A DNA stretch of 34,047 nt from NCBI GenBank assembly GCA_005502775.1, contig SCNI01000035.1, positions 1 to 34,047 of the forward strand, in the 5' to 3' direction. The position numbers were made by a program, and so were the translations under genes. Origin of the DNA: Microbacteriaceae bacterium 3FA27C10 (GTDB taxonomy: Bacteria; Actinomycetota; Actinomycetes; Actinomycetales; Microbacteriaceae). Each line of letters opens with the position of its first letter. Position 1 is the stretch's first letter. Positions 1,617-28,656 of the stretch are shown here, piece after piece. Under the pieces are notes generated by a model that saw only the letters and a list, made by a program, of their open reading frames with translations, ran no database searches and was not told where the DNA came from.

Positions 1617-1745
1617 GCCGACCACCGATCCGTCTGCCGCCATTCACCGCCTGTTACGCGTTGGACTCCAGACGTTCGACTGCGGGGAACAGGATCAGGG
1701 CCGCAAGCCTTGCCCACTCCCACCAGCTCAGACGGAGAAGAATCG

Positions 1746-3710
1746 ATGAAGAAACTCGGGCGGCCGACGGTAGCCGCTTTCGCAACCCTGGCACTCGCCG
1801 TGCCTCTGGCCGCGTTCGTCGCGCCGATGGCTGCGTCCGCCACCGCCCTGCCGACCCTCGTCGTGAACGAGGTCGACGCGAGCGGTGTTCCGCAGGACTG
1901 GATCGAGATCAAGAACACGGGTTCGGCTCCCGTGGACGCCTCGGGCCTGATCCTCAAGGACGACAAGGACTCCGACCGTTTCGACATCCCGGCCGGCACC
2001 GTGATCGCCGCCGGCGGCTACGCGACCTTCGACGTCGGATCCACCTTCGGGCTCGGCAAGGGCGGCGACGCCGCGCGGCTGTTCCTGAGCGACAACACCA
2101 CGCTCATCGACGGGTACACCTGGCCGAGCGACTCGGTCTACCCCGCGACCTGGGGTCGCTGCGACGACGGCACCGGTGCCTTCGTGGTGAACACCACGCC
2201 GTCCAAGGGCGCGGCGAACGTCTGCAGCACCACTCCGCCGACGACCCCGCCGACCACCCCTCCGACGGCTCCGCCCACGAGCCCCACCTCGACCCCGTGG
2301 CCGGGCGGTTCCACGGTGGCGGATGCCGCGGTCGCGAACTACGCGCCGTTCTCGTCGAACATGAGTGGCCTCAGCTGGGAGAAGGGCGCCAACGGCGCCT
2401 CCGACACGCTCTGGGCCGTGCGCAACGGCCCGGGCGCGCTCTTCGCGCTGCAGAAGTCGGGTTCGACCTGGGTTCCGGCCGCCGGCTGGGAGCAGGGCAA
2501 GGCCCTCAAGTACACCGACGGGACGGGTGACGTCGACGCCGAGGGCGTGGTGAAGACCGACTCCGGCATCTTCGTCTCCTCCGAGCGCAACAACAGCAAC
2601 AACAGCGTCAGCCGTCCGGCGGTGCTCAAGTACGACGCGTCCGCCACCGGCAGCACGCTCACGGCGACCATGGAGTGGAACCTCGTGTCGGCCCTGCCGA
2701 CCGTCGGCGCCAACCTCGGCCTCGAGGGCATCACCTTCGTGCCCGACTCCTACCTCGTGGCCAAGGGCTTCAAGTCCGACGCCGGTGTGACCTACGACCC
2801 CGCTGCCTTCGCCAACCACGGCAACGGCCTCTACTTCGTGGGCCTCGAGGGCACCGGCTCGGTCTACGCCTTCGCGCTCGACCAGACCGACGGCTCGAAG
2901 TTCACGCTGCTCGCCACCATCTCGACGGGCTTCCCGAACGGAGTCATGGAGGTGCAGTACGACGCCGAGAAGAGCGCGGTGTGGGCCATCTGCGACAACA
3001 CCTGCGGCGGCAAGTTCGGGCTGTGGGATGTCGACGCGCAGGGTCACTTCGCCCAGACGGCGCTGTTCGACCGCCCCACGGGTCTGCCGGACACGAACAA
3101 CGAGGGCTTCACCGTCGCGCCGCAGTCCCTCTGCGCGAACGGCGTGAAGCCGGTGGTCTGGGCCGACGACAACGACCTCAACGGCATCGCGCTGCGCGAG
3201 GGCACGATCGACTGCACTCCCGCACCGGTCGACCCGAACGCGCAGCAGCTGCAGGTGGTCGTGCCCGAGGTGGCCGGCGACTTCATCTGGAGCATCGACG
3301 GCACCAACGGCATCGTCGACCTCGGCACCGCCGTGTCGAAGGGCGACCACTTCGAGGCGGCCGGATCGATCAACCCGATCCGCGTCACCGACACCCGCGC
3401 CGCCGGCCCCACCTGGGCCATCTCGGCCCAGGTGAGCGACTTCGCCTCGGGAACCACCTCGTTCTCGGGCAAGTACCTCGGCTGGACCCCCTCGGTGATC
3501 GAGGCCGGTGCCGGCGCCTCCGCCGGTGCCGCAGTGGCCTCGGGCTACGACAGCGGCAACGGTCTGGCGAGCGCCTCCACGCTCGGCAGTGCCGCGGCCG
3601 GCCACACCAAGGGCTCGGCGAAGCTCGGTGCCGACCTGGCGCTCAAGCTCCCCGCCGACGTCGCCCAGAACACCTACACGGCGACGCTCACCCTCACCGC
3701 GCTGGGCTAG
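1746..3710 (+). CDS. secreted lamin-tail-domain / phytase-like propeller protein with WxL-like C-terminus
   Basis: This is a 654-residue exported protein. Residues 1-34 form a Sec signal peptide (basic MKK, hydrophobic core, ATA before the likely cleavage). Residues about 35-150 resemble a lamin-tail (LTD) domain, with VVNEVDASGVPQDWIEIKN at its start. Residues about 162-187 are a Thr/Pro-rich linker (repeated TTPPTTPP). Residues about 190-500 resemble the esterase-like phytase beta-propeller family (GLEGITF and VWADDNDLNGIALREG stretches). Residues about 499-654 form a beta-rich domain with VTDTRAAGPTWAISAQVSDF and YLGWTPS, resembling WxL-type surface domains. The start at 1746 is preferred over the in-frame ATG at 1710 because GGAG at 1734-1737 sits 8 bases upstream and the signal peptide starts there. 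The domain calls are inference from pattern; substrate is unknown. It ends just before a strong hairpin. Confidence 0.8.
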   Translation: MKKLGRPTVAAFATLALAVPLAAFVAPMAASATALPTLVVNEVDASGVPQDWIEIKNTGSAPVDASGLILKDDKDSDRFDIPAGTVIAAGGYATFDVGSTFGLGKGGDAARLFLSDNTTLIDGYTWPSDSVYPATWGRCDDGTGAFVVNTTPSKGAANVCSTTPPTTPPTTPPTAPPTSPTSTPWPGGSTVADAAVANYAPFSSNMSGLSWEKGANGASDTLWAVRNGPGALFALQKSGSTWVPAAGWEQGKALKYTDGTGDVDAEGVVKTDSGIFVSSERNNSNNSVSRPAVLKYDASATGSTLTATMEWNLVSALPTVGANLGLEGITFVPDSYLVAKGFKSDAGVTYDPAAFANHGNGLYFVGLEGTGSVYAFALDQTDGSKFTLLATISTGFPNGVMEVQYDAEKSAVWAICDNTCGGKFGLWDVDAQGHFAQTALFDRPTGLPDTNNEGFTVAPQSLCANGVKPVVWADDNDLNGIALREGTIDCTPAPVDPNAQQLQVVVPEVAGDFIWSIDGTNGIVDLGTAVSKGDHFEAAGSINPIRVTDTRAAGPTWAISAQVSDFASGTTSFSGKYLGWTPSVIEAGAGASAGAAVASGYDSGNGLASASTLGSAAAGHTKGSAKLGADLALKLPADVAQNTYTATLTLTALG

Positions 3711-5182: not shown

Positions 5183-6151
5183 CTACTGCACTCCACTCGT
5201 CGTGACGATGCGGGTCCAGGGGCCGGCGGGCACGGCGGAGTCGTCGACGAACTGCCAGGTGAGGCCCGCCTGCTCGCCGTTGAGCTCGGAGAAGCCGAGG
5301 CAGCCGACGACCGCCGGGGAGACATCCATGCCCGCGCCGCCGTAGCGGGCGTTGACCGGGCGCACGTCGCCGGCGCCGAAGACGTACTCGGCGTCGTCGT
5401 ACTCGCCGGGGCCGGCATCCTGGTTCTGGGCGTAGCAGGTGCGGCCGTTGAGCGTCAGCGCCACCCAGCGGTTCTTCATGTAGCTGAAGCCCTGGTCGCC
5501 GTGGTGCGAGGCGTAGGGCTCCTGGTTGGCCCAGGGCACCACCTGGTCGCGGCGCGCGAAGGCCGCCGCGTTGTTGATGTCGTCGAAGGGCAGGTCGAGG
5601 TAGAACGGGTTCTCGCGCGGCGTCATCTGCGTGGGGAAGTAGTCGTTGGAGGCCGATCGCGCCTCCGTCTCGCAGCTGCCGCCGGCGGTGGTTCCGTCGC
5701 AGCCGCCGTAGCTCTGGAACCACTGCGAGTCGTAGGTGGAGAACATCTGGCTGCCGTCGGCCGCGTTCGGGTCGAAGATCTCGCCCACCCAGAAGGTGGT
5801 GGCCACGATGCCCGTGTGCACCGGGTAGCTCTGCCCGGGTGCCGGTCCCGGCCCCGGGGCGGGCGCCGGTGGTGCCGGCGCGGCGGTCGCGGTGGGCGTG
5901 ACCGACGGGGTTCCGGATGCGGTCGGCGCGTGTGAGGCCGACGGCGACGCCGAGCCGCTGGCCGAGGGCGAGCCGGTGGCCAGCGTGCCGTCGCACTCCG
6001 AGGAGGTGCAGCCGAACCAGGAGCAGCTCGCGAGGCACGCTGCCGTCAGCCCGAGCACGACGGCTCCCGCGCCGAGCCGTCGAAGGCCGGCGGCCCGGCG
6101 TCCGCGGCTGCGTCCGCCGCCGGAACCGTCACCGCCGCCGTCCGACGTCAT
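5183..6151 (-). CDS. secreted lipoprotein with RlpA/expansin-like double-psi barrel domain (tentative)
   Basis: This 322-residue protein starts with a Gly/Asp/Arg-rich head, then a hydrophobic segment ending in LASC (residues 40-43), a good lipobox, so it is probably membrane-anchored on the outside. Residues about 50-105 are a Ser/Pro/Ala/Thr linker. Residues about 110-322 form a globular domain with several Cys. Its end, GMDVSPAVVGCLGF, LTWQFVD and VPAGPWTRIVTT, resembles the closing strands of RlpA/expansin-type double-psi beta-barrels (Asp-x-Ser-Pro-Ala, then V-x-W-x-F-V). The ATG shares the ATGA with the stop of the deacetylase gene, so the two are translationally coupled. I infer a role in binding or cleaving the exopolysaccharide or cell wall. 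The fold call is tentative; a lytic Asp cannot be assigned. Confidence 0.65.
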   Translation of the reverse strand: MTSDGGGDGSGGGRSRGRRAAGLRRLGAGAVVLGLTAACLASCSWFGCTSSECDGTLATGSPSASGSASPSASHAPTASGTPSVTPTATAAPAPPAPAPGPGPAPGQSYPVHTGIVATTFWVGEIFDPNAADGSQMFSTYDSQWFQSYGGCDGTTAGGSCETEARSASNDYFPTQMTPRENPFYLDLPFDDINNAAAFARRDQVVPWANQEPYASHHGDQGFSYMKNRWVALTLNGRTCYAQNQDAGPGEYDDAEYVFGAGDVRPVNARYGGAGMDVSPAVVGCLGFSELNGEQAGLTWQFVDDSAVPAGPWTRIVTTSGVQ

Positions 6152-7692
6152 TTCGAGTCCCCGGGCGCGACACCGCTGAGATCTTGCGCGGTGCCCGTCG
6201 GCGCATCCGTTCCGCTGTTCATGTGCACCTCGACCGGGCCCTGCACGAGCGGCGCAGCGGCGGCCGGCGCGGGCGACGCCGCGACGACCGTGGGAGCCGG
6301 GGCACCGACGGAGTCGTAGAGCGCGTAGTCGTCGGTCTCGAGCGTGCCGTTGCTGAACACGTTGAGCCCGAAGCTGATGCCCGAGAACCCGGCCGGGATG
6401 GCGGGAGTCGTGAACGCGGCCTCGGAGAAGACCGGGTTCGCCGCGAACCACGGGCTCGAGGTCCAGTACTGCCAGACGCCCGCCGTGGTGCGCAGGTAGA
6501 TGGCGAACTGGGTCACCACGGTCGACGTGTACCAGGCCCGCATCGAATAGGTGTGCCCGGGCACGACCGTCGGCGTGCAGGCGCCGAGGTCGAAGGCGGG
6601 CAGCAGCTTGGCATCGCCGTCGACGTAGTTCGCCACCGAGACGTAGCCGGCCACCGAGCCGGTTCGCGCGGGGGAGGTCCAGGTGATCGTCGGGGTGTTG
6701 TTGCCGTAGCCGCCCGTCATCCAGCAGCTCGGCAGCCCGTTGGCGCCCGCCGTCTCGAGACTCGGGTTGATGACGGCGTTCACGCCGGGGCCGGCCGGCG
6801 CCGTTGCCGGACCGGCCACGGCCGCCTTCGCGGTGCCGCCGATCACCTGGTCGACCGTCTTCACCACCGTGTTGTTGGTGAGCGCGCGCGGCTTCAGCCA
6901 CTGCACGAACTGGGTGAACACGGCGGGCGTCACGTTGAGATCGCACCCGGTGTCGCAGATGTTGTGGAAGGTGAACGGCACCCATCCGCCCGTCTTCTCC
7001 GCGTTCGTCACCGAGGCCTTGAGGTCGGCGAGGGTCCAGGTGTTGTCGACCTGGTCGAGGGCCTTCAGGTAGTAGGGGTTCGCGGGCGGGATCTTCTCGG
7101 TGTAACCGCACCCGGCGCATCCGAAGCGCGATTGCAGGTCGCCGAGCATGCGGGCGCTGTTGTAGCCGCAGGCCTTCGCCGCGGCCTCGTTCGCGGGTGT
7201 CGACGAGGCGAAGGGATACGCGAAGCTCTTCACCGTGAACCCCCAGCTCATGAGGGTGCTGCGGTCGTTGCAGATCTGACGCTTCACCTCGTCGGCCGGC
7301 AGCACGGCGAGGTCGGGATGGTTCACCGTGTGCCCGCCGATCTCGTGCCCCGCGGCCTTGAGGCTGTCGAGGTTCGCCCGCGTGAAGTAGCTGGCCGCGC
7401 CCACGAAGCCCGAGACGATGTAGAACGTTCCCTTCATGCCGTTGGCGTTCAGGATGCTCGCCGCCGTCATCTGGTTCGCGTTGCCGTCGTCGAAGGTGAG
7501 GCTGATGACGGTCTGCTTCAGCACCGCCGCAGGGGCGGCGCCGGGCGTGGCGGCGCTCGCCGCCGCCGAGGCGGGTAGGGTGACGGCGACGGCGACGGCG
7601 AGCGCGATCGTGGAGAGAGCCGCCGCCAGGGGGCGCCAGAGGTTCTTCGGCGGGCGCTTCGTCGACAGGCGGGGGGAGGTGCTTCGTTGCAC
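6148..7692 (-). CDS. secreted polysaccharide deacetylase (NodB/CE4) with carbohydrate-binding module
   Basis: This 514-residue exported enzyme should remove N- or O-acetyl groups from an extracellular polysaccharide. A signal peptide covers about residues 1-45 (basic head, hydrophobic core, ASAAASA). The NodB domain shows motif 1 TFDDG (residues 66-70), motif 2 HTVNH (121-125), motif 3 FAYPFAS, and a later PFTFHNIC. Asp69, His121 and His125 are the expected metal ligands. After about residue 300 there is a jelly-roll-like region (NPSLETAGANGLPSCWMTGG, then YSMRAWY) typical of CBM4/9-type modules, and a low-complexity Ala/Pro tail. The start is GTG at 7692 with a purine-rich GAGAGAG upstream. 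It lies 57 bases after glmS in the operon and overlaps the lipoprotein gene by 4 bases. Substrate is inferred from context to be an amino-sugar polymer. Confidence 0.88.
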   Translation of the reverse strand: MQRSTSPRLSTKRPPKNLWRPLAAALSTIALAVAVAVTLPASAAASAATPGAAPAAVLKQTVISLTFDDGNANQMTAASILNANGMKGTFYIVSGFVGAASYFTRANLDSLKAAGHEIGGHTVNHPDLAVLPADEVKRQICNDRSTLMSWGFTVKSFAYPFASSTPANEAAAKACGYNSARMLGDLQSRFGCAGCGYTEKIPPANPYYLKALDQVDNTWTLADLKASVTNAEKTGGWVPFTFHNICDTGCDLNVTPAVFTQFVQWLKPRALTNNTVVKTVDQVIGGTAKAAVAGPATAPAGPGVNAVINPSLETAGANGLPSCWMTGGYGNNTPTITWTSPARTGSVAGYVSVANYVDGDAKLLPAFDLGACTPTVVPGHTYSMRAWYTSTVVTQFAIYLRTTAGVWQYWTSSPWFAANPVFSEAAFTTPAIPAGFSGISFGLNVFSNGTLETDDYALYDSVGAPAPTVVAASPAPAAAAPLVQGPVEVHMNSGTDAPTGTAQDLSGVAPGDSK

Positions 7693-7749
7693 GATGGGCT
7701 CTCTCTCGATGGTGGGGCGGTGGGACGGTGTACGGAGGCGGTGGCCCGG

Positions 7750-9573
7750 CTACTCGACCGTGACCGACTTGGCCAGGTTGCGGGGCTTGTCGACGTCGCG
7801 CCCGAGGGCGAGCGCGAGTTCGCGGGCCAGGATCTGCAGCGGCACCACCGACTCGAGCGGCCCCCAGCGGTCGATGCCGCCGGGCATCGGCGTGCCGAGG
7901 CTGAGCCCGAGGGCCGGGATGGTGCTGCCGGCCCCGCCGATGCGGATCACGCGGCCGCCGCGTGCCGACACCTCGGCGATGTTGCTCTCGATGCGCCGGT
8001 CGCCCGAGTCGATGACGACCACGGGGGTTCCGGCCTCGACGAGCGCGAGCGGTCCGTGCTTGAGCTCGCCCGCCGGATAGTGCTCGGCCCAGCGGTAGCT
8101 CAGCTCCTTGAGTTTCAGCGCGCCCTCCGCGGCGTAAACGACGCCCGAGCCGCGGCCGAGGAAGAGGTAGCCCTGCGCATCCCGGATCTCGTCGATGAGC
8201 GGCGGGATCGCCTTCTGCGAGGCCGCGATCGCATGAGCGAGCAGATCCGGGATGCGGCGGAGGTCGTCGACCTGACGCCGGGCGTACTCCCGGTCGATCC
8301 TCCGTGTCGCCGCGAGGGCCGACAGCGCCATCGCCACCCCGGTGATCACCTGGGCGACGAAGGTCTTGGTGGCGGCGACACCGATCTCGGGGCCGGCGTT
8401 GCAGTTCAGCATCGAGTCGGCCCGCCGCGCGAGCGTGGAGTGGTCGCTGTTGGTGAGCGCCACGAGCGCCGAGGTGCCGAGGTCGAGATCGTCGATGGCC
8501 CGCAGCACGTCGGCGGTCTCGCCCGACTGGCTGAGGGCGATCACGAGGGTGCGCGGTTCGACGATGGCGCTCTGGCCCTCGCTCGCGATGAGCGAGGAGT
8601 TCGGCACGTCGCCGAGGGAGCCGAAGGCGTTCGCGATGACCCGGCCGGCGTTCAGCGAGGTGCCGCAGCCGAGCACGGCCACCCGCTCGAACGGCGGCAG
8701 CTGCAGCTCGGACCAGAGCGAGCCGTTCGCGATGCGCGGGGCGAGCTCGTCGATGATGCGGGCGGCCGTCTCGGGCTGCTCCTCGATCTCCTTGCCCATG
8801 AAGTCGGCGTGGCCGGCGAGCCCGTGGCTCGTTCCCGACCAGATCGACGAGACGAACGGGGGAGGGGTGACCCCGGTGCCGGCGCGGGTCCAGGCGAACT
8901 GCTCGCCGAGCTCCACCACGTCGCCGTCCCGCATGGCCTGGAACAGGTCGACCCATTGCGCGATCGCGTTGATGTCGCTCGCGGCGAAGACGCCCTTCTC
9001 CGAGCGGGCCACGAGCAAGGGGGAGCGGTGGGCGGCGGCCACGAGCGCGCCGCTCTGCGCGTCGAGGGCCACGACGGCCCAGGAGCCGCGCATCCGTCCC
9101 GTCGCCGCGGTGACGGCGTCGCGCAGCCCGCAGCCCGAACGCAGCTCGTGCTCGATCAGGTGGCTCACCACCTCGCTGTCGACGTCGGAGGCGAAGACGT
9201 GGCGCTCGGCTTCGAGCTGGGCCCGCAGCTCGACGGCGTTCTCGATGATGCCGTTGTGCACGATGCTGACGCGGCCCGTGCAGTCCCGGTGCGGATGCGC
9301 GTTCGCCTCGGTCACGGCCCCGTGCGTGGCCCACCGGGTGTGCCCGATCCCCGTGCCCGAGAGGGCTCCGTCGACGCCGGACTGATCGAGCGCGTCGAGC
9401 TGGCGCTCGAGGGTGTCGACCCGGTGGGTGGTGCGCGAGGACACGGTGGTGCCCGTCGTGGTGAGGATGGCGACGCCGGCCGAGTCGTAGCCGCGGTATT
9501 CGAGCAGCCGCAGCGCGTCGACGAGGAACGGCGCCGCGGCGCCGGGCATCCGGCAGGCGACGATGCCGCACAT
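7750..9573 (-). CDS. glmS: glutamine-fructose-6-phosphate aminotransferase (isomerising)
   Basis: This enzyme converts fructose-6-phosphate and glutamine to glucosamine-6-phosphate, the entry step to UDP-GlcNAc. The 607-residue length fits GlmS. Cys2 (MCGIVACRM) is the N-terminal glutaminase nucleophile. RGYDSAG, HTRWATHG and IVHNGIIENA are the other conserved glutaminase segments. Two SIS domains follow (CGTSLNAGRV, ALSQSGETADVLRAI, and VAATKTFVAQ), and the C-terminus KPRNLAKSVTVE carries the isomerase lysine region. The ATG overlaps the upstream TGA by one base (TGATG), indicating coupled translation with the epimerase. Its position inside a sugar operon suggests a dedicated copy; a housekeeping glmS may exist elsewhere, which cannot be seen here. 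It lacks its own promoter. Confidence 0.96.
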   Translation of the reverse strand: MCGIVACRMPGAAAPFLVDALRLLEYRGYDSAGVAILTTTGTTVSSRTTHRVDTLERQLDALDQSGVDGALSGTGIGHTRWATHGAVTEANAHPHRDCTGRVSIVHNGIIENAVELRAQLEAERHVFASDVDSEVVSHLIEHELRSGCGLRDAVTAATGRMRGSWAVVALDAQSGALVAAAHRSPLLVARSEKGVFAASDINAIAQWVDLFQAMRDGDVVELGEQFAWTRAGTGVTPPPFVSSIWSGTSHGLAGHADFMGKEIEEQPETAARIIDELAPRIANGSLWSELQLPPFERVAVLGCGTSLNAGRVIANAFGSLGDVPNSSLIASEGQSAIVEPRTLVIALSQSGETADVLRAIDDLDLGTSALVALTNSDHSTLARRADSMLNCNAGPEIGVAATKTFVAQVITGVAMALSALAATRRIDREYARRQVDDLRRIPDLLAHAIAASQKAIPPLIDEIRDAQGYLFLGRGSGVVYAAEGALKLKELSYRWAEHYPAGELKHGPLALVEAGTPVVVIDSGDRRIESNIAEVSARGGRVIRIGGAGSTIPALGLSLGTPMPGGIDRWGPLESVVPLQILARELALALGRDVDKPRNLAKSVTVE

Positions 9574-10595
9574 CAGGCACCCCGCGCATCGAGGGCGGCC
9601 GAGCGGGTGCCGGGGCCCTCGTGATCGAGCGAGCGTGAGGTGAGCATCTCCTCGGCCACACGGCGGATGATCTCGTCGAGCGGCGTCGCCGGCACGAAAC
9701 CGACGAGCGCGTAGGCCCGGCTGAAATCCGGCACCCGTCGGCGCATGTCCTCGAAACCGGCCGCATAGGCCTCGCTGTACGAGACGAAGGTGATGGGGCT
9801 CCGGCTGCCGGTGACGTCGAGGATGCGGTGGGCCAGGTTCACGATCGACACCTCTTCGGCGCCCCCGAGGTTGAACGCCTCGCCGTAGGCGGCGGGCTCC
9901 TCCACGAGCCGCACCATGGCCGGCACGACGTCGCCCACGTAGGAGAAGCATCGGGTCTGGTTGCCGTCGCCGTAGACGGTGAGCGGCTCGCCGCGCAGCG
10001 CCTGCCCGACGAGGTTCGGCACCACCATCCCGTATCGCCCGGTCTGGCGCGGCCCGACGGTGTTGAACAGCCGCACGATGGCCACGTCGAGCCCGTACTC
10101 GCTCCAGTAGGCGTGGGCGAAGGCCTCGTCGATGCCCTTCGCGGCCGCGTAGGTCCAGCGCGACTTCAGCGGGGAGCCGAGGATGCGGTCGGAGTCCTCG
10201 GTGAGCCGGTCGGCGGTGTTCTTGCCGTAGATCTCGCTCGTCGACACGAGCAGCAGCGTGGCGCGCGCCTCGACGCAGGCGTCGAGCACGTTCTCGGTGC
10301 CGTGGATGTTCGTACGCAAGCTCGAGAGCGGCTGCTCCACGATGAGCTTCACGCCCACCGCCGCCGCCAGGTGGAACACCCGGTCGGCGCCCGCGATGGT
10401 GGCCATCACGGTGTCGCGGTCGAGGATCGAGCCGTGCACGATCGAGAGCCGGGGATTGGGGAGGGAGTCGATGAGGTTGCGCGGGGCGCCGGTCGACATG
10501 TCGTCGAGCACGACGACCTCGTCTCCCAGGGCGAGGAGGTGTTCGGTGAGGTGGCTGCCGATGAAGCCGGCGCCTCCGGTGATGACTGAGCGCAT
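9573..10595 (-). CDS. NAD-dependent nucleotide-sugar epimerase/dehydratase (extended SDR)
   Basis: This 340-residue cytosolic enzyme acts on a UDP-linked sugar. The N-terminal Rossmann motif is TGGAGFIGSH (residues 6-15). VSTSEIYG carries the active-site Ser/Thr, YAAAK is the YxxxK catalytic pair, and RLFNTVGPRQ and YGDGNQTRCFSYVGDVV bind the nucleotide sugar. These features fit UDP-glucose or UDP-GlcNAc(A) 4-epimerases and UDP-glucuronate decarboxylases; the exact reaction cannot be decided. Context favours epimerisation of the product of the upstream dehydrogenase. The start at 10595 has GAAGGA about 9-10 bases upstream. It is 66 bases after the dehydrogenase gene and overlaps glmS by one base. 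Confidence 0.88.
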   Translation of the reverse strand: MRSVITGGAGFIGSHLTEHLLALGDEVVVLDDMSTGAPRNLIDSLPNPRLSIVHGSILDRDTVMATIAGADRVFHLAAAVGVKLIVEQPLSSLRTNIHGTENVLDACVEARATLLLVSTSEIYGKNTADRLTEDSDRILGSPLKSRWTYAAAKGIDEAFAHAYWSEYGLDVAIVRLFNTVGPRQTGRYGMVVPNLVGQALRGEPLTVYGDGNQTRCFSYVGDVVPAMVRLVEEPAAYGEAFNLGGAEEVSIVNLAHRILDVTGSRSPITFVSYSEAYAAGFEDMRRRVPDFSRAYALVGFVPATPLDEIIRRVAEEMLTSRSLDHEGPGTRSAALDARGA

Positions 10596-10661
10596 GGGTC
10601 TGGTCCTTCAGGTCTGGTCGTGTGCGGGCGGGCGGGTGTGCGGCGGGCTGGCCGGGGTGTG

Positions 10662-12005
10662 TCAGAGGATGACGCGCTGCGGCACGTCGGTGCCGCGGTA
10701 GGTGGTGTCGAGCACGAGCTGGTGCGGGGCGATCCAGCCGAGCGGGGCATCCGCGTGCCGCGTGTGCAGCACCACGAGCTCGGCCTCGAAGGCGGCCGGG
10801 TCGGCGACGCCGGTGAGCAGGATGCCGCTCGGCAGCCGCACGGAGTCGAAGTGCTCGTCGAAGAAGGCCACCGTGGCGCCGCGCTCGATCAGGCCGTCGA
10901 GGATCTCGAGGGCCGGCGACTCGCGCAGGTCGGCGACATCGGGCTTGTAGGCGATGCCCACCACGAGCACGCGGGTGCCGAGCATGCCGCTGCCGGCTCC
11001 CGAGAGCACCTCCTGCACGCGATCGACCACGCGGTTCGGGCGGGCCGCGATCTCCACCATGGCCTGCGTGATCATCGGTGCGGCGACGCGCTGCTTGCGC
11101 AGCTGCCAGAGCAGGTAGTGCGGGTCGCACGGGATGCAGTGGCCACCGACGCCCGGGCCCGGCAGGAAGGGCATGTAGCCGTAGGGCTTGGTGGAGGCCG
11201 CATCGACGACGTCGGCGATGTTCAGATCGAGCGCCTGGCAGATGTCGGCGAACTCGTTGGCGAGAGCGATGTTGACAGCGCGAAACGTGTTCTCCAAGAG
11301 CTTGGTCATCTCGGCCGCCGCGAGCGAGCGCACGCGGTGCACCTTGGTGACGTAGCGGAGGAGCAGCCTCGACGCCTCCTCTTCGCACTGGGCGGTGGCG
11401 CCGCCCACCACGCGGGGCACCTCGTCGTGGTCGAAGGCCGCGTTGCCGGGGTCGATGCGCTCCGCGCTGAAGGCGACGAAGACATCCGTCCCCACCGTGT
11501 AGCCACGCTCCATCAGCGGCTTCACGAGCAGGTCGTCGGTGCAGCCGACGTAGGAGGTGGAGGTGAGCATGAGCACTTGGCCGGGCACCGCGTGGTCGAC
11601 GACCATGGCGCAGGCTGCGCGCAGGATCGACAGATCGGGGATGAGGTGCTCGTCGACCGGGGTGGGCACGCACACGATCACGGCGGCGGCCTTGCGCAGC
11701 TCGCCGGGGTCGGTGCTGAGCACGAAGCCCGGGTGGTCGAGCGCCCGGAGCAGCCGCGCGTGGTCGATCTCGAGGAGATCGGCCTCGTGGGAGCGGATCA
11801 CCTCGAGGCGGCGTTCCGAGGTGTCGAGGGCGAGCACGCGGCTGTCGGCGCCGTGGTAGGCGAGGGCGGTGGGGAGGCCCACGTAGCCCAGGCCGACGAT
11901 GGCAACGTCGTATTCGAAGGCGGTGGCGGTGGTCGCCGCCGGGCGATCCCAGCTCTCGGCCGGCTCACCGATGTCGGTGCGGGTGATGCTCTCGAACGTT
12001 GTCAC
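10662..12005 (-). CDS. UDP-N-acetylhexosamine-type nucleotide-sugar 6-dehydrogenase
   Basis: This 447-residue enzyme oxidises the C6 hydroxyl of a UDP-sugar to a uronic acid using two NAD+. The NAD-binding motif is VAIVGLGYVGLP (about residues 35-45). VCVPTPVD and the long helix ENTFRAVNIALANEFADIC follow, and the catalytic cysteine is Cys290 in GPGVGGHCIPCDPHYL. The C-terminal domain has VVGIAYKPDVADLRESPA. The ENTFRAVNIA and GGHCIPxDP versions of these motifs are typical of WbpA/WecC-type UDP-GlcNAc or UDP-ManNAc dehydrogenases rather than classical UDP-glucose dehydrogenase. I chose the GTG at 12005 because AGGGAG lies about 7 bases upstream. The reading frame stays open further upstream, but that part shows no homology. 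It is the first gene of a five-gene operon running to 5183. Confidence 0.9.
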   Translation of the reverse strand: MTTFESITRTDIGEPAESWDRPAATTATAFEYDVAIVGLGYVGLPTALAYHGADSRVLALDTSERRLEVIRSHEADLLEIDHARLLRALDHPGFVLSTDPGELRKAAAVIVCVPTPVDEHLIPDLSILRAACAMVVDHAVPGQVLMLTSTSYVGCTDDLLVKPLMERGYTVGTDVFVAFSAERIDPGNAAFDHDEVPRVVGGATAQCEEEASRLLLRYVTKVHRVRSLAAAEMTKLLENTFRAVNIALANEFADICQALDLNIADVVDAASTKPYGYMPFLPGPGVGGHCIPCDPHYLLWQLRKQRVAAPMITQAMVEIAARPNRVVDRVQEVLSGAGSGMLGTRVLVVGIAYKPDVADLRESPALEILDGLIERGATVAFFDEHFDSVRLPSGILLTGVADPAAFEAELVVLHTRHADAPLGWIAPHQLVLDTTYRGTDVPQRVIL

Positions 12006-12273
12006 GACTTTCTCCCTTGATCGTCTGGCGCGTGTCAGTTGCTGCGATGACCGCGTCAGCGACGACGGGAGGAGCGAGGGTGTCCCCTGGGTGTGAGGCT
12101 CGTTCATCCCGCCGCCGTGCGACGCAATCGGGTCGGGTGGGGAGATGAAGCGGTGTTCGGCCTCGTGCCCCCGGACACACTGTCTCCGGAGGCCTTCACG
12201 GGAGTCAATCGCTTTCCGGAGGCATGCGGTTTTCCACGCCGGGTTCGCCGGGGACTGCGGTGACAGGGCCTCG

Positions 12274-12291
12274 CGTGCGGGTTTCCGCACG
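12274..12291. repeat. short perfect inverted repeat upstream of synthase
   Basis: CGTGCGG and CCGCACG flank a GTTT loop. The element ends 32 bases before the proposed -10 box of the glycosyltransferase, where an activator or operator would sit. Without a T run it is unlikely to be a terminator. Confidence 0.45.
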
Positions 12292-12323
12292 ATCATGCGG
12301 GTGGGCCGGTGGGCGAGCCGAAC

Positions 12324-12329
12324 TAGGTT
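12324..12329 (+). promoter_or_regulatory. -10 box (TAGGTT) of the synthase gene
   Basis: TAGGTT lies 25 bases before the ATG at 12355, followed by a Shine-Dalgarno GAGGGG at 12341-12346 with 8 bases to the start. This gene therefore looks leadered, unlike many in the window. I see no clear -35 box, compatible with activator dependence. Confidence 0.45.
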
Positions 12330-12354
12330 TGAGCTTCGAAGAGGGGTGGGTGCG

Positions 12355-13641
12355 ATGTTCTCGTTCCTGATCGTCCTCCTCCTCGTGCTCGGGGTGAACA
12401 CGATCATCTGGGGCACGGCGGGCGGGATGCGCGTGCTGGCCGCCCGGTTGCGGCGGCACTCCTCGTCGGCGCGCGCCGGCGCATCCGCAGCCGGCCCCGG
12501 GCGCGACGAGGTCGCCATCCTCATCGCGGCCCACAATGAAGAGGTCGTGATCGGCCGCACCATCGCCGAGCTCGACAAGTTCGGCCCGGAGGTGAGCGTG
12601 TTCGTGGTCTCCGACGGTTCCAGCGACGACACCGCCGTCATCGCCCGCGCGCACGGCGCCACGGTGCTCGAGCTGAACCCGAACCGCGGCAAGGCGGGAG
12701 CCCTCGTGGCCGCGATCGAGCATTTCCGCATCGCCGAGCGCTTCGAGGTGCTTCTCCTGCTCGACGCCGACACCCACCTCAGCGCGGAGTACTTCGACAC
12801 AGGGCTCGGCGAGTTCGCCGATCCGGGGATCGTGGCGGTGGCCGGCCGCGCCTCCACGCTGTTCACCCCGTCGTCGCCCACCTTCTTCGGGCGCCTGCTC
12901 GTGGCCTACCGCGAGCGCGTCTACATCGCGATGCAGTACCTCTTCAAGTTCGGGCAGGCGGGTCGCTATGCGAACGTCGTTCCGATCGTGCCGGGCTTCG
13001 CGAGCATGTACCGCACGAGCATCCTGAAGGACATCGACATCGCCGCCCAGGGCCTCAAGATCGAGGACTACAACATGACCTTCGAGGTGCACGCGAAGCG
13101 CCTCGGCCGCATCGCATTCCACCCGCACGCGGCGATCGCGCTCACGCAGGACCCCGACACCCTGTTCGACTACGTGAAGCAGGTGGAGCGCTGGAATCTC
13201 GGGTTCTGGCAGACCGTGGGCCGCCACCGCTTCCGGATGCGCGTGTTCTGGGTCGCTCTCAGCCTCTTCATCGGCGAACTGCTGCTCGCCAGCGTGGTGC
13301 TCGTGCTGCTGCTGCCGGCGATCACCCTCTCGGTGGGCTCCTCGCTCGCCGAGGCGGCGGGCCTGGACCCCTCCGGCATCGCCGGGGGCGTGGCCGGCGC
13401 TCTGCCGCCGCTCGCTCTGCTCGCCGGGCTCGTGCTGCCCGACTACCTGCTCACGGTGCTCGCCGCCGTCGTGAGCCGCCGCGCGGTCTACCTCGCATAC
13501 GGACTGTTCTTCCCGTTCTTCCGCATCGTGGATGCGGTGCTCTGCCTCTACGCGCTCGGCGAGGCGGTGTTCAGCAGCTCCGGAGGCACCTGGAAGAGCC
13601 CGTCGCGACGGCCGGCCGCCGAGCACTCCGCCGTCAGTTGA
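12355..13641 (+). CDS. processive family 2 membrane glycosyltransferase (polysaccharide synthase)
   Basis: This 428-residue protein should polymerise a UDP-sugar and pass the chain through the membrane, like hyaluronan, PNAG, chitin or cellulose synthases. There is one N-terminal membrane segment (FSFLIVLLLVLGVNTIIWG), then the GT-A domain: AAHNEEVVIGRT, SDGSSDD (Asp87 region), the DxD motif DADT (137-140), the acceptor-site IEDYN (Glu237-Asp238), and the processivity motif QVERW (276-280). Three to four C-terminal membrane segments follow, with a short charged tail. The ATG at 12355 is chosen for GAGGGG 8 bases upstream; the in-frame GTG at 12346 overlaps that site. It is divergent from the nucleotide-sugar operon and its last 8 bases overlap the regulator gene. 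The polymer cannot be identified from sequence alone. Confidence 0.92.
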   Translation: MFSFLIVLLLVLGVNTIIWGTAGGMRVLAARLRRHSSSARAGASAAGPGRDEVAILIAAHNEEVVIGRTIAELDKFGPEVSVFVVSDGSSDDTAVIARAHGATVLELNPNRGKAGALVAAIEHFRIAERFEVLLLLDADTHLSAEYFDTGLGEFADPGIVAVAGRASTLFTPSSPTFFGRLLVAYRERVYIAMQYLFKFGQAGRYANVVPIVPGFASMYRTSILKDIDIAAQGLKIEDYNMTFEVHAKRLGRIAFHPHAAIALTQDPDTLFDYVKQVERWNLGFWQTVGRHRFRMRVFWVALSLFIGELLLASVVLVLLLPAITLSVGSSLAEAAGLDPSGIAGGVAGALPPLALLAGLVLPDYLLTVLAAVVSRRAVYLAYGLFFPFFRIVDAVLCLYALGEAVFSSSGGTWKSPSRRPAAEHSAVS

Positions 13642-16279
13642 GCAGCGACGCCAGGTGCGAGCGCGAGCGCGCGCCCACCTTGCGGTAGATGTGGGTGAGG
13701 CGCAGTTCGACGGTGCGGAGCGAGATGTACAGCTCGGCGGCGATCTCGCGGTTGCGGAAGCCCTTGCGCACCATCTCGGCCACCTCGCGCTCGTCGGAGG
13801 TGAGGAGGCCGAGCACCGTGCTCACTGGTGGAACCTCCGGCACCTCTGCCCGGGCCACGAAGCGGCGCGCCCAGAGCGTGGCTCCGGCGTTCTCGAAGGC
13901 GGCGGCCGCGGCGCTCGCGGCGTGTTCCGCGGCTTCGGCGTGGCCGAGCCGGGCGAGGCGCTGGGCCTGGGCGATGAGGGTGCGCCCCCGGTCGTAGCTG
14001 TATTCGGTGCCGTCGAACGCGGCCACGGCCTCGCGGAACAGCCCCGGTGAGAGCTCGTCGGCCGCGAGCAGCGCTCGAGAGCGGGCCAGGGCATGGTCGA
14101 GCCAGCGCGAGGGGCGCTCGCTGCGCTGCTCGAGCATCCGCCGGTACACCGTCTCGCCCTCGCGGGCCCGGCCGCTCAGCACGCTGGCCTCGACCAGGTC
14201 GGCCGAGTGCCGCAGAAGGGAGGGGTTCTGCAGGTGCGCTCCGGATGCGTCGGCCAGCAGCAGCAGCCGCATGGCGTCGTCGAACCGGTTCTCGAGCAGC
14301 GCCGACTGCCCCTGAAAGGTGAAGAGCCGCGCGATGAGGGCGGGATTGCGCTCGGAGGAGGCGAATTCGAGGCACTCCTCGGCGTAGGCCTGCGACTCGT
14401 CGGGCCGCTCGCGCGAGTAGTGATACCAGGCCAGCACGAGCGCTCGCGCCGCGCGGTGGTTCGCGACCGGAAGCGGGAACGACAGCCACTCCTCCACCGC
14501 GAGCCGGGCGCGGTGGAAGTCGCCGGCGCGCATCTCGTTCGTGCAGCTGAGGCCCCGGGCGCGCTCGAGCGTGAGCGGCTCGCCGTGCGGGCGGTTGAAC
14601 ACCACCGCGCAGACCCGCCGCGCCTGTGCGTAGCGTTCGCGGTAGCTCAGGGTGGTGGCGAAGGCGACCAGCGAGTCCGACGACATCGCCTGCAGCTCCT
14701 CCGCGCTCACCCGCCCGGTGGTGGGCTCCGGGTCGGGGCGGCCGTCCACGGCATCGAGCATCGCGAGCGTCTCGCGGTGGGCCTGCCGGGCGTCGTCGGA
14801 GGCCTCGCCCAGGAATCGCCCGGCGAGCGCCACATCGCGGCGCGCCTCCTCGACGTCCCAGCGCGCGGAGTGGGCGAAGCTCGCCTGAGCGAGCAGCCGC
14901 ACCGCGCCGGAGGGATCGTCGTCGCCGTAGAGGCTGACCGCCGCCTCCACGTCGCTCGTGGGCACCAGGCAGGTCTTCTCGTATTCGACCAGGATGCGCT
15001 CGGTCGCGAGCCGCAGGTTGAGCGCGGCCGACGCCGGGTCGAACCGCACGTGCAGCAGGTAGCGCTCGGCGAGGTCGAGTTCGCCCTGACCGGTGAGTGC
15101 GGTGGCGAAGCGGAACACCAGGGCGTGACGCGACTCGAGGTCGACGGCGGTGAGCAGCCCGCGCTCGGCGAGCTCGACGGCGGAGGCGGTGTCGCCCTCG
15201 AGCGCGAAGCGGGTGGCCGCGAGCAGCAGATCGTCGGTGAGTTCCGCATCCGGCGCCATGAAACTCGCGTGCCAGATGCGCAGCCGGTCGTCGATCTCCT
15301 CGTGCAGCGCGGCCAGCTCCGCGTGGCGCTCGCGCCGCTCGCGCGGCTTCATGTCCCAGTAGAGATAGGAGCGCAGCAGTGGCTCGACCAGGCGCACGTA
15401 CTGCCCGTGGCTGGTGGCGAGACCGGCGTAGAGGATCTCCTCGAGCACGTCGAGGTCGTCGGGGCGTTCGCGGGTGAGGGCGCCGACGTGCGTGAGCGGT
15501 GCGAGGGCGATCGACTCGAGCATGCGGCGCAGCGGTTCGGCCGCATCGCTCAGTTTCTTGCTCGCCACGGCTTTGAGGGACTCACTCGGCCGGGAGGGCA
15601 GCACGAGCGGTTCCCGCCCCGCGAGCTGGTCGGCACTGAGCGCCCGCGCCGACTCCATCATGACGAGCGGGTTGCCGTCGGACTGGCCCGCGACGATGCG
15701 GAGGGTTCCGGGGTCGGCCCCGAGCCCGAACTCGGCCGCGGCGAGATGCACCGACTCGTCGATGTTCAGGCGATGGATCTCGCGCTGCTGGAATCCGGCG
15801 AGTGGACTGTCCTCGGCGAGCTGGTCGGCGGTCGCGACGAAGCGGAGACCGGTGCCTGCGAGGCGGCCCGCCATGAAGCCGATGAGGGTCTGGGTCTCGG
15901 CATCCATGCGGTCGAGATCGTCCACCAGCACGAGCAGCGGCGGCAGGGAGAGGCCGCGCAGCAGCGAGAGCAGGTCGCGGGCGGCGGCGAACATGAACTG
16001 CGGCTCGGTGGAACGCAGGGTGAAGCGACCCCCGAACTCCACCGCACGCGAGTCGTCGATCGAGGCGAAGATGCGGGAGAACCCCGACAGGGGCCAGGCC
16101 GCCTCGGCCGGGTTCGCGTGCAGCAGCACCGCCTGCACCGACGACTCCCGCAGTGCGGCCTCGAGCAGGTGCGAGCGGCCGACTCCCTGTTCGCCGATGA
16201 ATACCACGGCGCTCTCCGAGGGGGCGGTGGCGATCTGCGCGATGAGATCGAGCTCACCGCGATGCGCGATGAACTCCAT
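13634..16279 (-). CDS. LAL-type LuxR family transcriptional regulator with AAA ATPase domain
   Basis: This is an 881-residue cytosolic regulator of the large ATP-binding LuxR (MalT-like) class. The N-terminal NTPase domain has a P-loop-like GEQGVGRS (residues 29-36), in which the usual Lys is Arg, and a Walker B VDDLD (119-123). The middle is a long helical TPR-like region, usual for ligand sensing. The C-terminal LuxR HTH (about 820-881) starts at LTSDEREVAEMV and includes GFRNREIAAELYISLRTVE and HIYRKVGARSRSHLASLL. I use the ATG at 16279 rather than the TTG just before it. It overlaps the synthase gene convergently by 8 bases. Control of the exopolysaccharide locus is inferred from position and a shared upstream 9-mer, not shown. 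The inducer is unknown. Confidence 0.9.
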   Translation of the reverse strand: MEFIAHRGELDLIAQIATAPSESAVVFIGEQGVGRSHLLEAALRESSVQAVLLHANPAEAAWPLSGFSRIFASIDDSRAVEFGGRFTLRSTEPQFMFAAARDLLSLLRGLSLPPLLVLVDDLDRMDAETQTLIGFMAGRLAGTGLRFVATADQLAEDSPLAGFQQREIHRLNIDESVHLAAAEFGLGADPGTLRIVAGQSDGNPLVMMESARALSADQLAGREPLVLPSRPSESLKAVASKKLSDAAEPLRRMLESIALAPLTHVGALTRERPDDLDVLEEILYAGLATSHGQYVRLVEPLLRSYLYWDMKPRERRERHAELAALHEEIDDRLRIWHASFMAPDAELTDDLLLAATRFALEGDTASAVELAERGLLTAVDLESRHALVFRFATALTGQGELDLAERYLLHVRFDPASAALNLRLATERILVEYEKTCLVPTSDVEAAVSLYGDDDPSGAVRLLAQASFAHSARWDVEEARRDVALAGRFLGEASDDARQAHRETLAMLDAVDGRPDPEPTTGRVSAEELQAMSSDSLVAFATTLSYRERYAQARRVCAVVFNRPHGEPLTLERARGLSCTNEMRAGDFHRARLAVEEWLSFPLPVANHRAARALVLAWYHYSRERPDESQAYAEECLEFASSERNPALIARLFTFQGQSALLENRFDDAMRLLLLADASGAHLQNPSLLRHSADLVEASVLSGRAREGETVYRRMLEQRSERPSRWLDHALARSRALLAADELSPGLFREAVAAFDGTEYSYDRGRTLIAQAQRLARLGHAEAAEHAASAAAAAFENAGATLWARRFVARAEVPEVPPVSTVLGLLTSDEREVAEMVRKGFRNREIAAELYISLRTVELRLTHIYRKVGARSRSHLASLLN

Positions 16280-26967: not shown

Positions 26968-28656
26968 GTGAACGGCGTCCAGCTCCTCCTCGTGATCGTG
27001 GGTGCGATCGCGGTCAGCGGGCTGGCCCAGCGCCGCGGGCTTCAGCCGGCCCTCGTCATCACGCTCGTGGGCTTCGCCGTGTCGTTCATCCCGGGGCTCA
27101 CCCGCATCGAGCTCGACACCGAGATCGTGCTCGGCATCGTGCTGCCGCCGCTGCTCTACTCGGCGGCCCTGAACTTCTCGTTCGTCTCCTTCGCGCGCAA
27201 CTTCCGGCCGATCGTGGGGCTCGGCGTGGGCCTCGTGGTGGCCACCGCCCTGCTCGTGGGCGTCTTCGCCGCGTGGGTGGTGCCGGCGCTCACCCTCGGC
27301 ACGGCGTTCATCCTCGGGGCCATCGTGGCGCCGCCGGATGCCGTCACCGCGGTGGCCATCGGGCGCAAGCTCGGGCTGCCGAAACGCGTGATGTCGATCC
27401 TCACCGGCGAGAGCCTCGTGAACGACGCGGCGGCCCTGACGCTGTTCTCCATCACGCTCGCCGGCGTCGTGGGCACCCACACGCTCTTCGCCAACCCGGT
27501 GCTGCTCTTCCTCTACAGCGCGATCGTGGGCGTGGGGGTGGGAGTGCTGCTCGCGACGGTGGCGACCGTCATCCGGCGCCTGCTGAAGGACTCGGGACTC
27601 GAGACCGTGCTCGGACTCCTGGTGCCCTTCGCCGCCTACCTCCTCGCCGAGCAGATCGGGGCCTCAGGCGTGCTCGCCGTGGTGGCGGCGGGATTCGCCA
27701 TCGGGTCGAGTTCGAGTCGCTCCGGCTATCAGACCCGCCTGCAGGAACGGCAGGTCTGGAGCTCGCTCGACGTGCTGCTGGAGGCATTCGTGTTCGCCTA
27801 CATGGGCCTGCAGCTGCGCTTCGTGATGGAAGACCTCACGGCCGCGGGCGACTCGGTGTGGGAGATCTTCGGGGTGGGCCTGCTCGTGCTGCTCGTGGTG
27901 CTGCTGATCCGGCCGGTGTGGGTGTTCGTGTCGTTCGGGCGGCACTTCCTGCTCGACCGGGTGATGCGGCGCCGCATCGCGAGTGACGCGCGCGTGCAGG
28001 AGCGCATCCGCCTGGAGAACGAGCGGCGCATCGCGCGCGGGCGGAGACCACGGCAGTTCCCGGTGTTCCTGAACTGGCGGGAGAGCCTCGTGGTGTCGTG
28101 GACCGGGATGCGCGGGGTCGTCACCCTCGCCGCCGCGGCCGGCATCCCGCTCGCGCTGGCCGACGGCACCCCTTTTCCGGGGCGTGCCGAGATCCAGGCC
28201 ATCGCGTTCATCGTGGCCGTGGGCACCCTCCTCGTGCAGGGGCTCACGCTGCCGGCGCTCATCCGCTCGCTGCATCTCAGCGACCCCAAGCAGGAGGACT
28301 TCGACCGCGAGCAGGCGGCGCACGCGCTCGAGGTGGCGCAAGCCGCCTCGAACGACGTCTACAAGAACTTCCTGGCGTCGCCGCCCGAGGGGGTTCCGCC
28401 GGAGCTGCTCCAGCGTCTGACGCAGATGGTCAAGCAGCAGTCGGCCGACGCCGCGCGCGACCCCGATCCCGGCTCGACGAGCGCCTACGGAGAGGCCTTC
28501 GGCACCCTCTACCGCGAGGTGCTGCAGGCGCAGCGCAACGCCGTGGTCGACGAGCGCGACGCGAACCGACTCGACGACGACGCGGCCCGCGAGTTCCTCG
28601 AGCAGCTCGACTACCAGGAGGCGGCGATCGTGTCGCGGCTCGGGTACCGGCTGTGA
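26968..28656 (+). CDS. CPA1 family Na+/H+ antiporter (second copy)
   Basis: This is a 562-residue relative of the protein at 12-1616 and should likewise exchange protons for monovalent cations. It has about twelve membrane segments. The ion-site motif GAIVAPPDAVTAVAIG is near residue 117; the first copy has APTDAV at this point. GESLVNDAAAL follows. A basic cytosolic segment near residues 345-365 (RRRIASDARVQERI) interrupts the membrane domain before TGMRGVVTLAAAAGIP. The tail (about 435-562) is hydrophilic and acidic with coiled-coil character. The GTG start is fixed by a TAGAGT box 6 bases upstream. The Thr-to-Pro difference in the ion-site motif suggests different ion preference, which is inference. 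It may run into the carbonic anhydrase-like gene 79 bases downstream. Confidence 0.93.
   Translation: MNGVQLLLVIVGAIAVSGLAQRRGLQPALVITLVGFAVSFIPGLTRIELDTEIVLGIVLPPLLYSAALNFSFVSFARNFRPIVGLGVGLVVATALLVGVFAAWVVPALTLGTAFILGAIVAPPDAVTAVAIGRKLGLPKRVMSILTGESLVNDAAALTLFSITLAGVVGTHTLFANPVLLFLYSAIVGVGVGVLLATVATVIRRLLKDSGLETVLGLLVPFAAYLLAEQIGASGVLAVVAAGFAIGSSSSRSGYQTRLQERQVWSSLDVLLEAFVFAYMGLQLRFVMEDLTAAGDSVWEIFGVGLLVLLVVLLIRPVWVFVSFGRHFLLDRVMRRRIASDARVQERIRLENERRIARGRRPRQFPVFLNWRESLVVSWTGMRGVVTLAAAAGIPLALADGTPFPGRAEIQAIAFIVAVGTLLVQGLTLPALIRSLHLSDPKQEDFDREQAAHALEVAQAASNDVYKNFLASPPEGVPPELLQRLTQMVKQQSADAARDPDPGSTSAYGEAFGTLYREVLQAQRNAVVDERDANRLDDDAAREFLEQLDYQEAAIVSRLGYRL

Follow-up and report, generated by a model that had tools for sequence, protein, structure and literature searches.

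We analyzed a 34,047-nucleotide stretch of the genome of Microbacteriaceae bacterium 3FA27C10 (contig SCNI01000035.1, hereafter the window), focusing on seven genes at positions 5183-16279. We consider the chances about even that these genes form a dedicated synthase-dependent exopolysaccharide system that works through UDP-N-acetylxylosamine and comprises a deacetylase and a barrel lipoprotein. The gene content of the locus, its conservation, the predicted folds, and the catalytic signatures are directly established. The case for a synthase-dependent polymer is strong, that for an amino-sugar polymer is good, and that for N-acetylxylosamine (XylNAc) in the polymer is moderate. The locus combines a UXS-like short-chain dehydrogenase/reductase (SDR) and a dehydrogenase resembling WecC, and the genome yielded no UDP-GlcNAc 2-epimerase; UDP-N-acetylxylosamine is on these grounds the likeliest precursor, and the polymer likeliest non-acidic. 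The genome, of a soil actinobacterium, has 4.0 Mb and a completeness of 99.88%.

In the scheme that we propose, GlmS would raise the flux to UDP-GlcNAc, the dehydrogenase would convert UDP-GlcNAc to UDP-GlcNAcA, and the SDR would decarboxylate the latter to UDP-N-acetylxylosamine. A hyaluronan-synthase-like family 2 glycosyltransferase (GT2) would then polymerize and export the amino sugar, either alone or alternating with GlcNAc. Outside the cell, a family 4 carbohydrate esterase (CE4) would partially de-N-acetylate the chain, and the barrel lipoprotein would cleave or trim it. The LAL-like protein, where present, may act as a regulator. Every substrate and linkage in this scheme, as well as the polymer, its cleavage, and its regulation, is what we infer from the genes.

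Gene content and conservation of the locus

The gene calls place the following features in the segment, with the minus-strand genes transcribed in the order nucleotide-sugar dehydrogenase, extended SDR, GlmS, CE4 deacetylase, lipoprotein, and the GT2 gene divergent from them:

5183-6151, minus strand: lipoprotein, secreted, with a domain at residues ~106-322 predicted to be a double-psi beta-barrel, probable polymer-cleaving enzyme (structure model, Foldseek)
6148-7692, minus strand: CE4 polysaccharide deacetylase, secreted, with a C-terminal domain (PF01522, motifs)
7750-9573, minus strand: GlmS, the genome's second copy, for amino-sugar supply (TIGR01135)
9573-10595, minus strand: SDR of the extended type, predicted to be a UXS-like decarboxylase of a nucleotide-sugar uronate (PDB match to human UXS1, signature residues)
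10662-12005, minus strand: nucleotide-sugar 6-dehydrogenase on the WecC/Cap5O/TviB side, predicted UDP-GlcNAc 6-dehydrogenase (TIGR03026, Cap5O)
12006-12354, no strand: intergenic region of 349 bases that separates the dehydrogenase gene from the divergent GT2 gene, putative promoter region (gene-call spacing)
12355-13641, plus strand: processive membrane GT2, hyaluronan-synthase-like polymer synthase (model, Foldseek)
13634-16279, minus strand: LAL-like regulator of LuxR type, accessory, converging on the GT2 gene (PF00196, AAA_16)

The lipoprotein and CE4 genes overlap by 4 bases, the GlmS and SDR genes by 1 base, and the converging GT2 and LAL genes by 8 bases. An earlier note on this DNA, made without database searches, holds for the seven genes, for its two short minus-strand overlaps, which are exact, and for the divergent GT2 overlapped by a LAL-like regulator. 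Third-position GC is 0.92-0.96 in all seven genes, and the window proteins match the Pfam models Polysacc_deac_1, SIS and GATase, Epimerase, UDPG_MGDP_dh, GT2, and a LuxR-type HTH above cut-off.

Among 99 related genomes, own genome counted, orthologues of the GT2, the lipoprotein, the SDR, and the dehydrogenase occur in an identical set of 14: 10 of the 16 within the genus, 3 of the 44 in the rest of the family, and 1 of the 39 in the rest of the order. Orthologues were called above 400 bits for the GT2, 170 bits for the lipoprotein, and 500 bits for the dehydrogenase, and at E <1e-60 for the SDR, cut-offs chosen after gaps in the scores had been seen (next-best matches: GT2 64, lipoprotein 25, dehydrogenase 290 bits). 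Below these lie dehydrogenase matches of 216-290 bits in 13 further genomes and 8 lipoprotein matches at 20-25 bits. The arrangement is kept in 12 of the 13 relatives' loci, with the CE4 gene shifted beyond the LAL gene in 4; two loci lack GlmS and one lacks the LAL protein. At one locus, L062, every gene points in the same direction.

A wider sample was obtained by a scan for the lipoprotein with one genome per species, from which the best 80 of 167 relatives were taken as named loci, with flanks of up to 10 kb (some contigs end sooner). Dehydrogenase, SDR, and GT2 lie near the lipoprotein in 75 of these 80. With stricter cut-offs the three are found together in 73, and with CE4 as well in 70; among the loci missed by this count, L079 and L133 have their dehydrogenase matches in pieces, and in L107 and L129 the contig ends close by. 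The dehydrogenase is directly upstream of the SDR in 70 of the 73. GlmS and LAL orthologues, found in 41/80 and 45/80 loci, were rejected as core parts and are accessory, each in about half of the loci. Hence, of the families that the earlier note had grouped together, GT2, SDR, dehydrogenase, and lipoprotein co-occur strongly, GlmS and LAL are not core, and the possibility it raised that the genes rarely stand together in relatives did not materialize.

The closest named lipoprotein loci are from Herbiconiux, and hosts include Microbacteriaceae, Arthrobacter, Aeromicrobium, Prescottella, Pseudonocardia, Amycolatopsis, and Nakamurella. The recurrence across genera shows that the gene set is more than a chance association. 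The lipoprotein was found in 3 of 396 genomes drawn across the phylum (own genome counted), and the distribution is therefore patchy.

The LAL-like protein (881 aa) matches PF00196 above cut-off (2.9e-12) and AAA_16 just under it (32.0 vs 32.6). In 43 of the 45 loci that have it, it lies within 600 bp of the GT2 gene on the opposite strand. Large ORFs that look LAL-type by eye flank similar Arthrobacter loci (L132:62-4791, L142:16967-19621; clusters in 13 and 10 loci), too distant to count as orthologues of the window protein.

Synthase, deacetylase, and barrel lipoprotein

The GT2 is a processive membrane glycosyltransferase with DxD, ED, and QxxRW motifs and a polymer-synthase fold, as expected of synthase-dependent systems. 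Its model (pLDDT 92.5) retrieves hyaluronan synthases at Foldseek ranks 1-10, the best being that of a Chlorella virus (E 9.5e-15, TM 0.67 over the query), followed by cellulose synthases (11-12), a mannosyltransferase (13-14), and chitin synthases from rank 15, with glucosyl-3-phosphoglycerate synthases also among the lower ranks. The motifs DxD (D137, D139), ED (E237, D238), and QxxRW (Q276, R279, W280) are invariant in 42 aligned sequences, namely those of the window, of L062, and of 40 hand-picked from the 75 named loci with a GT2. Among NCBIfam models PgaC/IcaA scores best, at 62.3 bits far below its equivalog cut-off of 422.3. A lipid or protein glycosyltransferase that makes no polymer would be in keeping with the mannosyltransferase mentioned above and with AglJ, MftF, and a dolichyl-phosphate hexose transferase, which the GT2 matches weakly, but it seems highly improbable given that the first twelve ranks are all polymer synthases, that the motifs are invariant, and that a deacetylase and a barrel protein are conserved beside the gene. 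The likeliest reading of the model is a processive polymer synthase, which agrees with the motifs listed in the earlier note and, together with the conserved gene set, supports its proposal of a synthase-dependent polymer system with a deacetylase. The grouping with N-glycan or lipid glycosyltransferases that the note had named as a refutation did not come about.

The deacetylase belongs to CE4 by its PF01522 match (1.5e-19) and its TFDD and GHTVNHP motifs. The carbohydrate-binding module (CBM) that the earlier note had added to it did not hold up as well: the window protein has no Pfam hit to one at E 0.01, and a sub-threshold CBM_4_9 match was seen in 1 of 6 orthologues tested.

The lipoprotein has no Pfam (at E 0.01) or NCBIfam match and did not fall into the RlpA, expansin, GH45, or GH75 families. 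A known sequence family was rejected, as only a chance-level myosin match turned up. A search of PHROGs gave a single match, of 16 bits, that falls outside the barrel domain, and one of annotated phages and plasmids gave no match. The model (pLDDT 87) resembles double-psi beta-barrels, in line with the barrel-like protein of the earlier note, with a TM over the target of up to 0.60 and no PDB match reaching an E of 0.001. Kiwellins come first in the PDB (E 2e-3, probability 1.0), ahead of barwin-like and cerato-platanin folds and, lower down, a viral chitosanase (rank 17, probability 0.18), an expansin (rank 19, E 0.12), and GH45 (rank 28, E 0.65). Among viral models, phage RlpA-like proteins are in the first five (best E 7.6e-4). 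A loose lipobox pattern lies upstream in 74 of 97 lipoprotein loci (repeated genomes and viral contigs counted).

The barrel domain also occurs in three IMG/VR viral contigs. In the first (L144:2409-5702) it forms a fusion with an Alginate_lyase2 protein, and a weak endolysin match and a head-decoration protein are encoded nearby. In the second (L145:4770-5726) it adjoins a GH19 endolysin and an Alginate_lyase2 protein. In the third (L146:4290-5771), the contig whose viral nature is least tested, it follows a stretch resembling CBM_4_9 (23 of 25.9 bits) and adjoins an Alginate_lyase2 protein. These fusions and adjacencies to polysaccharide-lyase genes suggest polymer cleavage, and thus a depolymerase. 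A non-catalytic binder or expansin-like loosener has less than an even chance but must be taken seriously for this protein, considering that kiwellins, barwins, and cerato-platanins lead its PDB matches and expansins come further down. Against it stand the company of lyase genes in the viral contigs and five aspartates (D81, D86, D140, D148, D171, domain numbering) that are invariant in an alignment of 64 hand-picked sequences; D140 and D171 correspond to positions 245 and 276 of the full-length lipoprotein.

Other observations concern lipoprotein copies and neighbours. Tandem copies occur in Aeromicrobium loci (L093:9166-10645, L121:9169-10633), and several Arthrobacter loci have an additional, longer copy that is encoded on the other strand (L080:17413-18165). 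In 6 loci, a member of one gene cluster stands among the locus genes; it is GH18 by Pfam in the one member checked, and its presence speaks for the proposed system. The gene beside the lipoprotein in 11 Arthrobacter-type loci (L080:10652-11833 and 10 others) is divergent and encodes a secreted-looking protein of ~390 aa; it appears GH18-like by eye but has no Pfam hit. In the window itself, a protein that looks secreted and combines a lamin tail domain and a phytase-like one (1710-3710) is encoded ~1.5 kb from the lipoprotein gene, and two similar membrane proteins look by eye like sodium/proton antiporters (12-1616 and 26968-28656).

The nucleotide-sugar precursor

The earlier note's suggestion of an own amino-sugar supply is supported. 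The operon GlmS is a second genome copy. It scores 542 bits against the TIGR01135 cut-off of 418, and the other copy (G000:C22:48438-50279) scores 766. The dehydrogenase is above the TIGR03026 cut-off, has Cap5O as its best PDB match, and scores 202 bits to WecC, 148 to TviB, and 101 to TuaD (NCBIfam), none above the equivalog cut-off. The genome encodes two more full-length dehydrogenases, also below equivalog cut-offs, one of which is TuaD-like (388 of 700 bits to TuaD, 61 to TviB). UDP-ManNAc was rejected as substrate, as no UDP-GlcNAc 2-epimerase (PF02350) was found in this almost complete genome by a search whose control was positive in 11 of 14 genomes.

A profile built from 24 hand-picked SDR sequences scores highest, among solved structures, with human UXS1 (249 bits), followed by 8vr2 (211, no function named), 6wjb (173), which we take to be the 4-epimerase PelX, and the TDP-glucose dehydratase 1r66 (140). 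The motifs STSE and R..Y...K are present in all 74 distinct SDRs of the 80 named loci (a larger set of 88 holds genomes twice). The residue following GPRQ, presumably equivalent to R185 of BcUGAepi, is T, S, or K in 71 of these, R in 1, and unread in 2. BcUGAepi is a 4-epimerase whose R185A/D variants become decarboxylases; among its variants T126A, S127A, and S128E, the last gave trace decarboxylation (PMC10107529). In our reading, its Ser128 sits where decarboxylases have the Glu that is E121 here. The residues described for EvdS6 are T126, E128, Y150, K154, and N179 (PMC10338323). The signature residues of human UXS1 are K151, Y147, T118, Y84, E120, R144, R277, N176, A79, and S119 (PMC12820599), and the SDR matches eight of the ten (K153, Y149, T119, E121, R146, R287, N178, S120), all invariant in 24 aligned orthologues. 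We therefore have fairly good confidence, on sequence grounds, that the SDR is a decarboxylase rather than an epimerase or dehydratase. Since E121 and R146 occupy decarboxylase positions and UXS1 outscores 6wjb, the sugar is more probably a neutral pentosamine than a uronate. The "SDR epimerase" of the earlier note is probably wrong, and its "acidic or epimerised" polymer is disfavoured for the same reasons.

Several observations weigh against the proposed system or its chemistry. Two signature positions differ (A79 to V80, Y84 to I85), although they may not be defining because Mth373, assigned as a UXS, likewise lacks them (PMC12820599). One of the 74 SDRs has the R following GPRQ. Among NCBIfam models the SDR scores best with two 4,6-dehydratases, LegB (170 of 475 bits) and RmlB (149); a bifunctional xylose-synthase model follows (139), and all three scores are below cut-off. 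The operon dehydrogenase could use UDP-Glc, and a third dehydrogenase (L152) is nearer ManNAc-type models (175 and 146 bits). Among the 88 best CE4 pieces in relatives, crude patterns recover TFDD in 78, HxxxH in 70, and the last motif in 49. The phage neighbours of the barrel domain have a uronate-lyase fold, a better fit to a uronic polymer. Finally, 5 of the 80 close lipoprotein loci stand without a synthase: two of them are at contig ends, and L091, L097, and L131 have none within their flanks. More distant homologues of the lipoprotein (L154-L157, 28-39% identical) occur in another two genomes of the phylum, three of them in a single genome, and have no synthase genes nearby.

These points bear on three other chemistries. 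If the SDR were a C4-epimerase, as in the earlier note, the polymer would be acidic, containing GalNAcA, Vi-like or hyaluronan-like, and partly deacetylated. The phage lyases would suit such a polymer, the SDR scores 100 bits with the GalE model and 86 with TviC, neither reaching the cut-off, and WbpP and WbgU join 6wjb among its PDB matches; we nevertheless find it unlikely, given the lead of UXS1 over 6wjb and the Glu121 and Arg146 present in 24/24 aligned sequences. A slimmer chance is given to a dehydrogenase acting on UDP-Glc and an SDR producing UDP-xylose, for a xylose or xylose/GlcNAc polymer with a CE4 acting as acetylxylan esterase or on GlcNAc. Human UXS1 does use UDP-GlcA, and CE4 includes acetylxylan esterases (PMC5855634), but the dehydrogenase scores WecC and TviB above TuaD, a separate TuaD-like enzyme is encoded elsewhere, and the second GlmS points to amino sugars. 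A 4,6-dehydratase of LegB or RmlB type, with the dehydrogenase product used separately, would explain the two best NCBIfam models of the SDR. It is nonetheless very unlikely, as both scores are far below cut-off (475 and 365), UXS1 outscores 1r66 among solved structures, and the SDR has TSE where the dTDP-glucose dehydratase Mth1789 has TDE (PMC12820599).

Relation to known systems

Returning to the UDP-N-acetylxylosamine route, we tentatively suggest a more specific picture, in which the product would be poly-N-acetylxylosamine or a GlcNAc/XylNAc copolymer that has lost part of its acetyl groups. The double-psi barrel protein would be the depolymerase dedicated to it, and phages of the hosts would have borrowed this enzyme. 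By analogy, poly-N-acetylxylosamine would be to chitin, lacking C6, what xylan is to cellulose. If the sugar prediction is true, this would represent a new biopolymer, a use for the rarely reported nucleotide sugar UDP-N-acetylxylosamine, and a new depolymerase family. Terms for this nucleotide sugar occur in 2 papers of the literature searched. No published description of the gene set was found in that literature, which leaves out most subscription papers. The main text of PMC7112194 lacks the terms "dehydrogenase" and "decarboxylase", and the clusters described in PMC13390465 differ from the window locus.

Parts of the locus do have counterparts. Hyaluronan synthases are the closest solved fold to the GT2. 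Hyaluronan systems have precursor genes beside the synthase, whereas the dehydrogenase in the window scores as more WecC-like than UGD-like, below the equivalog cut-offs, and we know of no hyaluronan synthase system with a counterpart of the SDR, the CE4 protein, or the barrel protein. PNAG systems include a deacetylase, and the synthase and gene set of Pel differ from those of the window. In the PNAG systems (pga/ica, and MatAB of Streptomyces, PMC5972031) a GT2 likewise makes an amino-sugar polymer. In contrast to these, the locus in the window also contains a dehydrogenase expected to form a uronate, an SDR of decarboxylase type, an extra GlmS, and the barrel lipoprotein, and its GT2 reaches only 62 of 422 bits to PgaC. 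Pel resembles the proposed product as a partly deacetylated amino-sugar polymer with a deacetylase/hydrolase (PMC12022489), while the SDR of the window scores lower to 6wjb than to UXS1. Bacillus cereus makes UDP-N-acetylxylosamine with a UDP-GlcNAc 6-dehydrogenase and UXNAcS, the same two steps as predicted here; the available part of that paper links no polymer system to the pathway (PMC5078965). The system is most likely a variant of synthase-dependent exopolysaccharide systems that is conserved but patchy in Actinomycetota.

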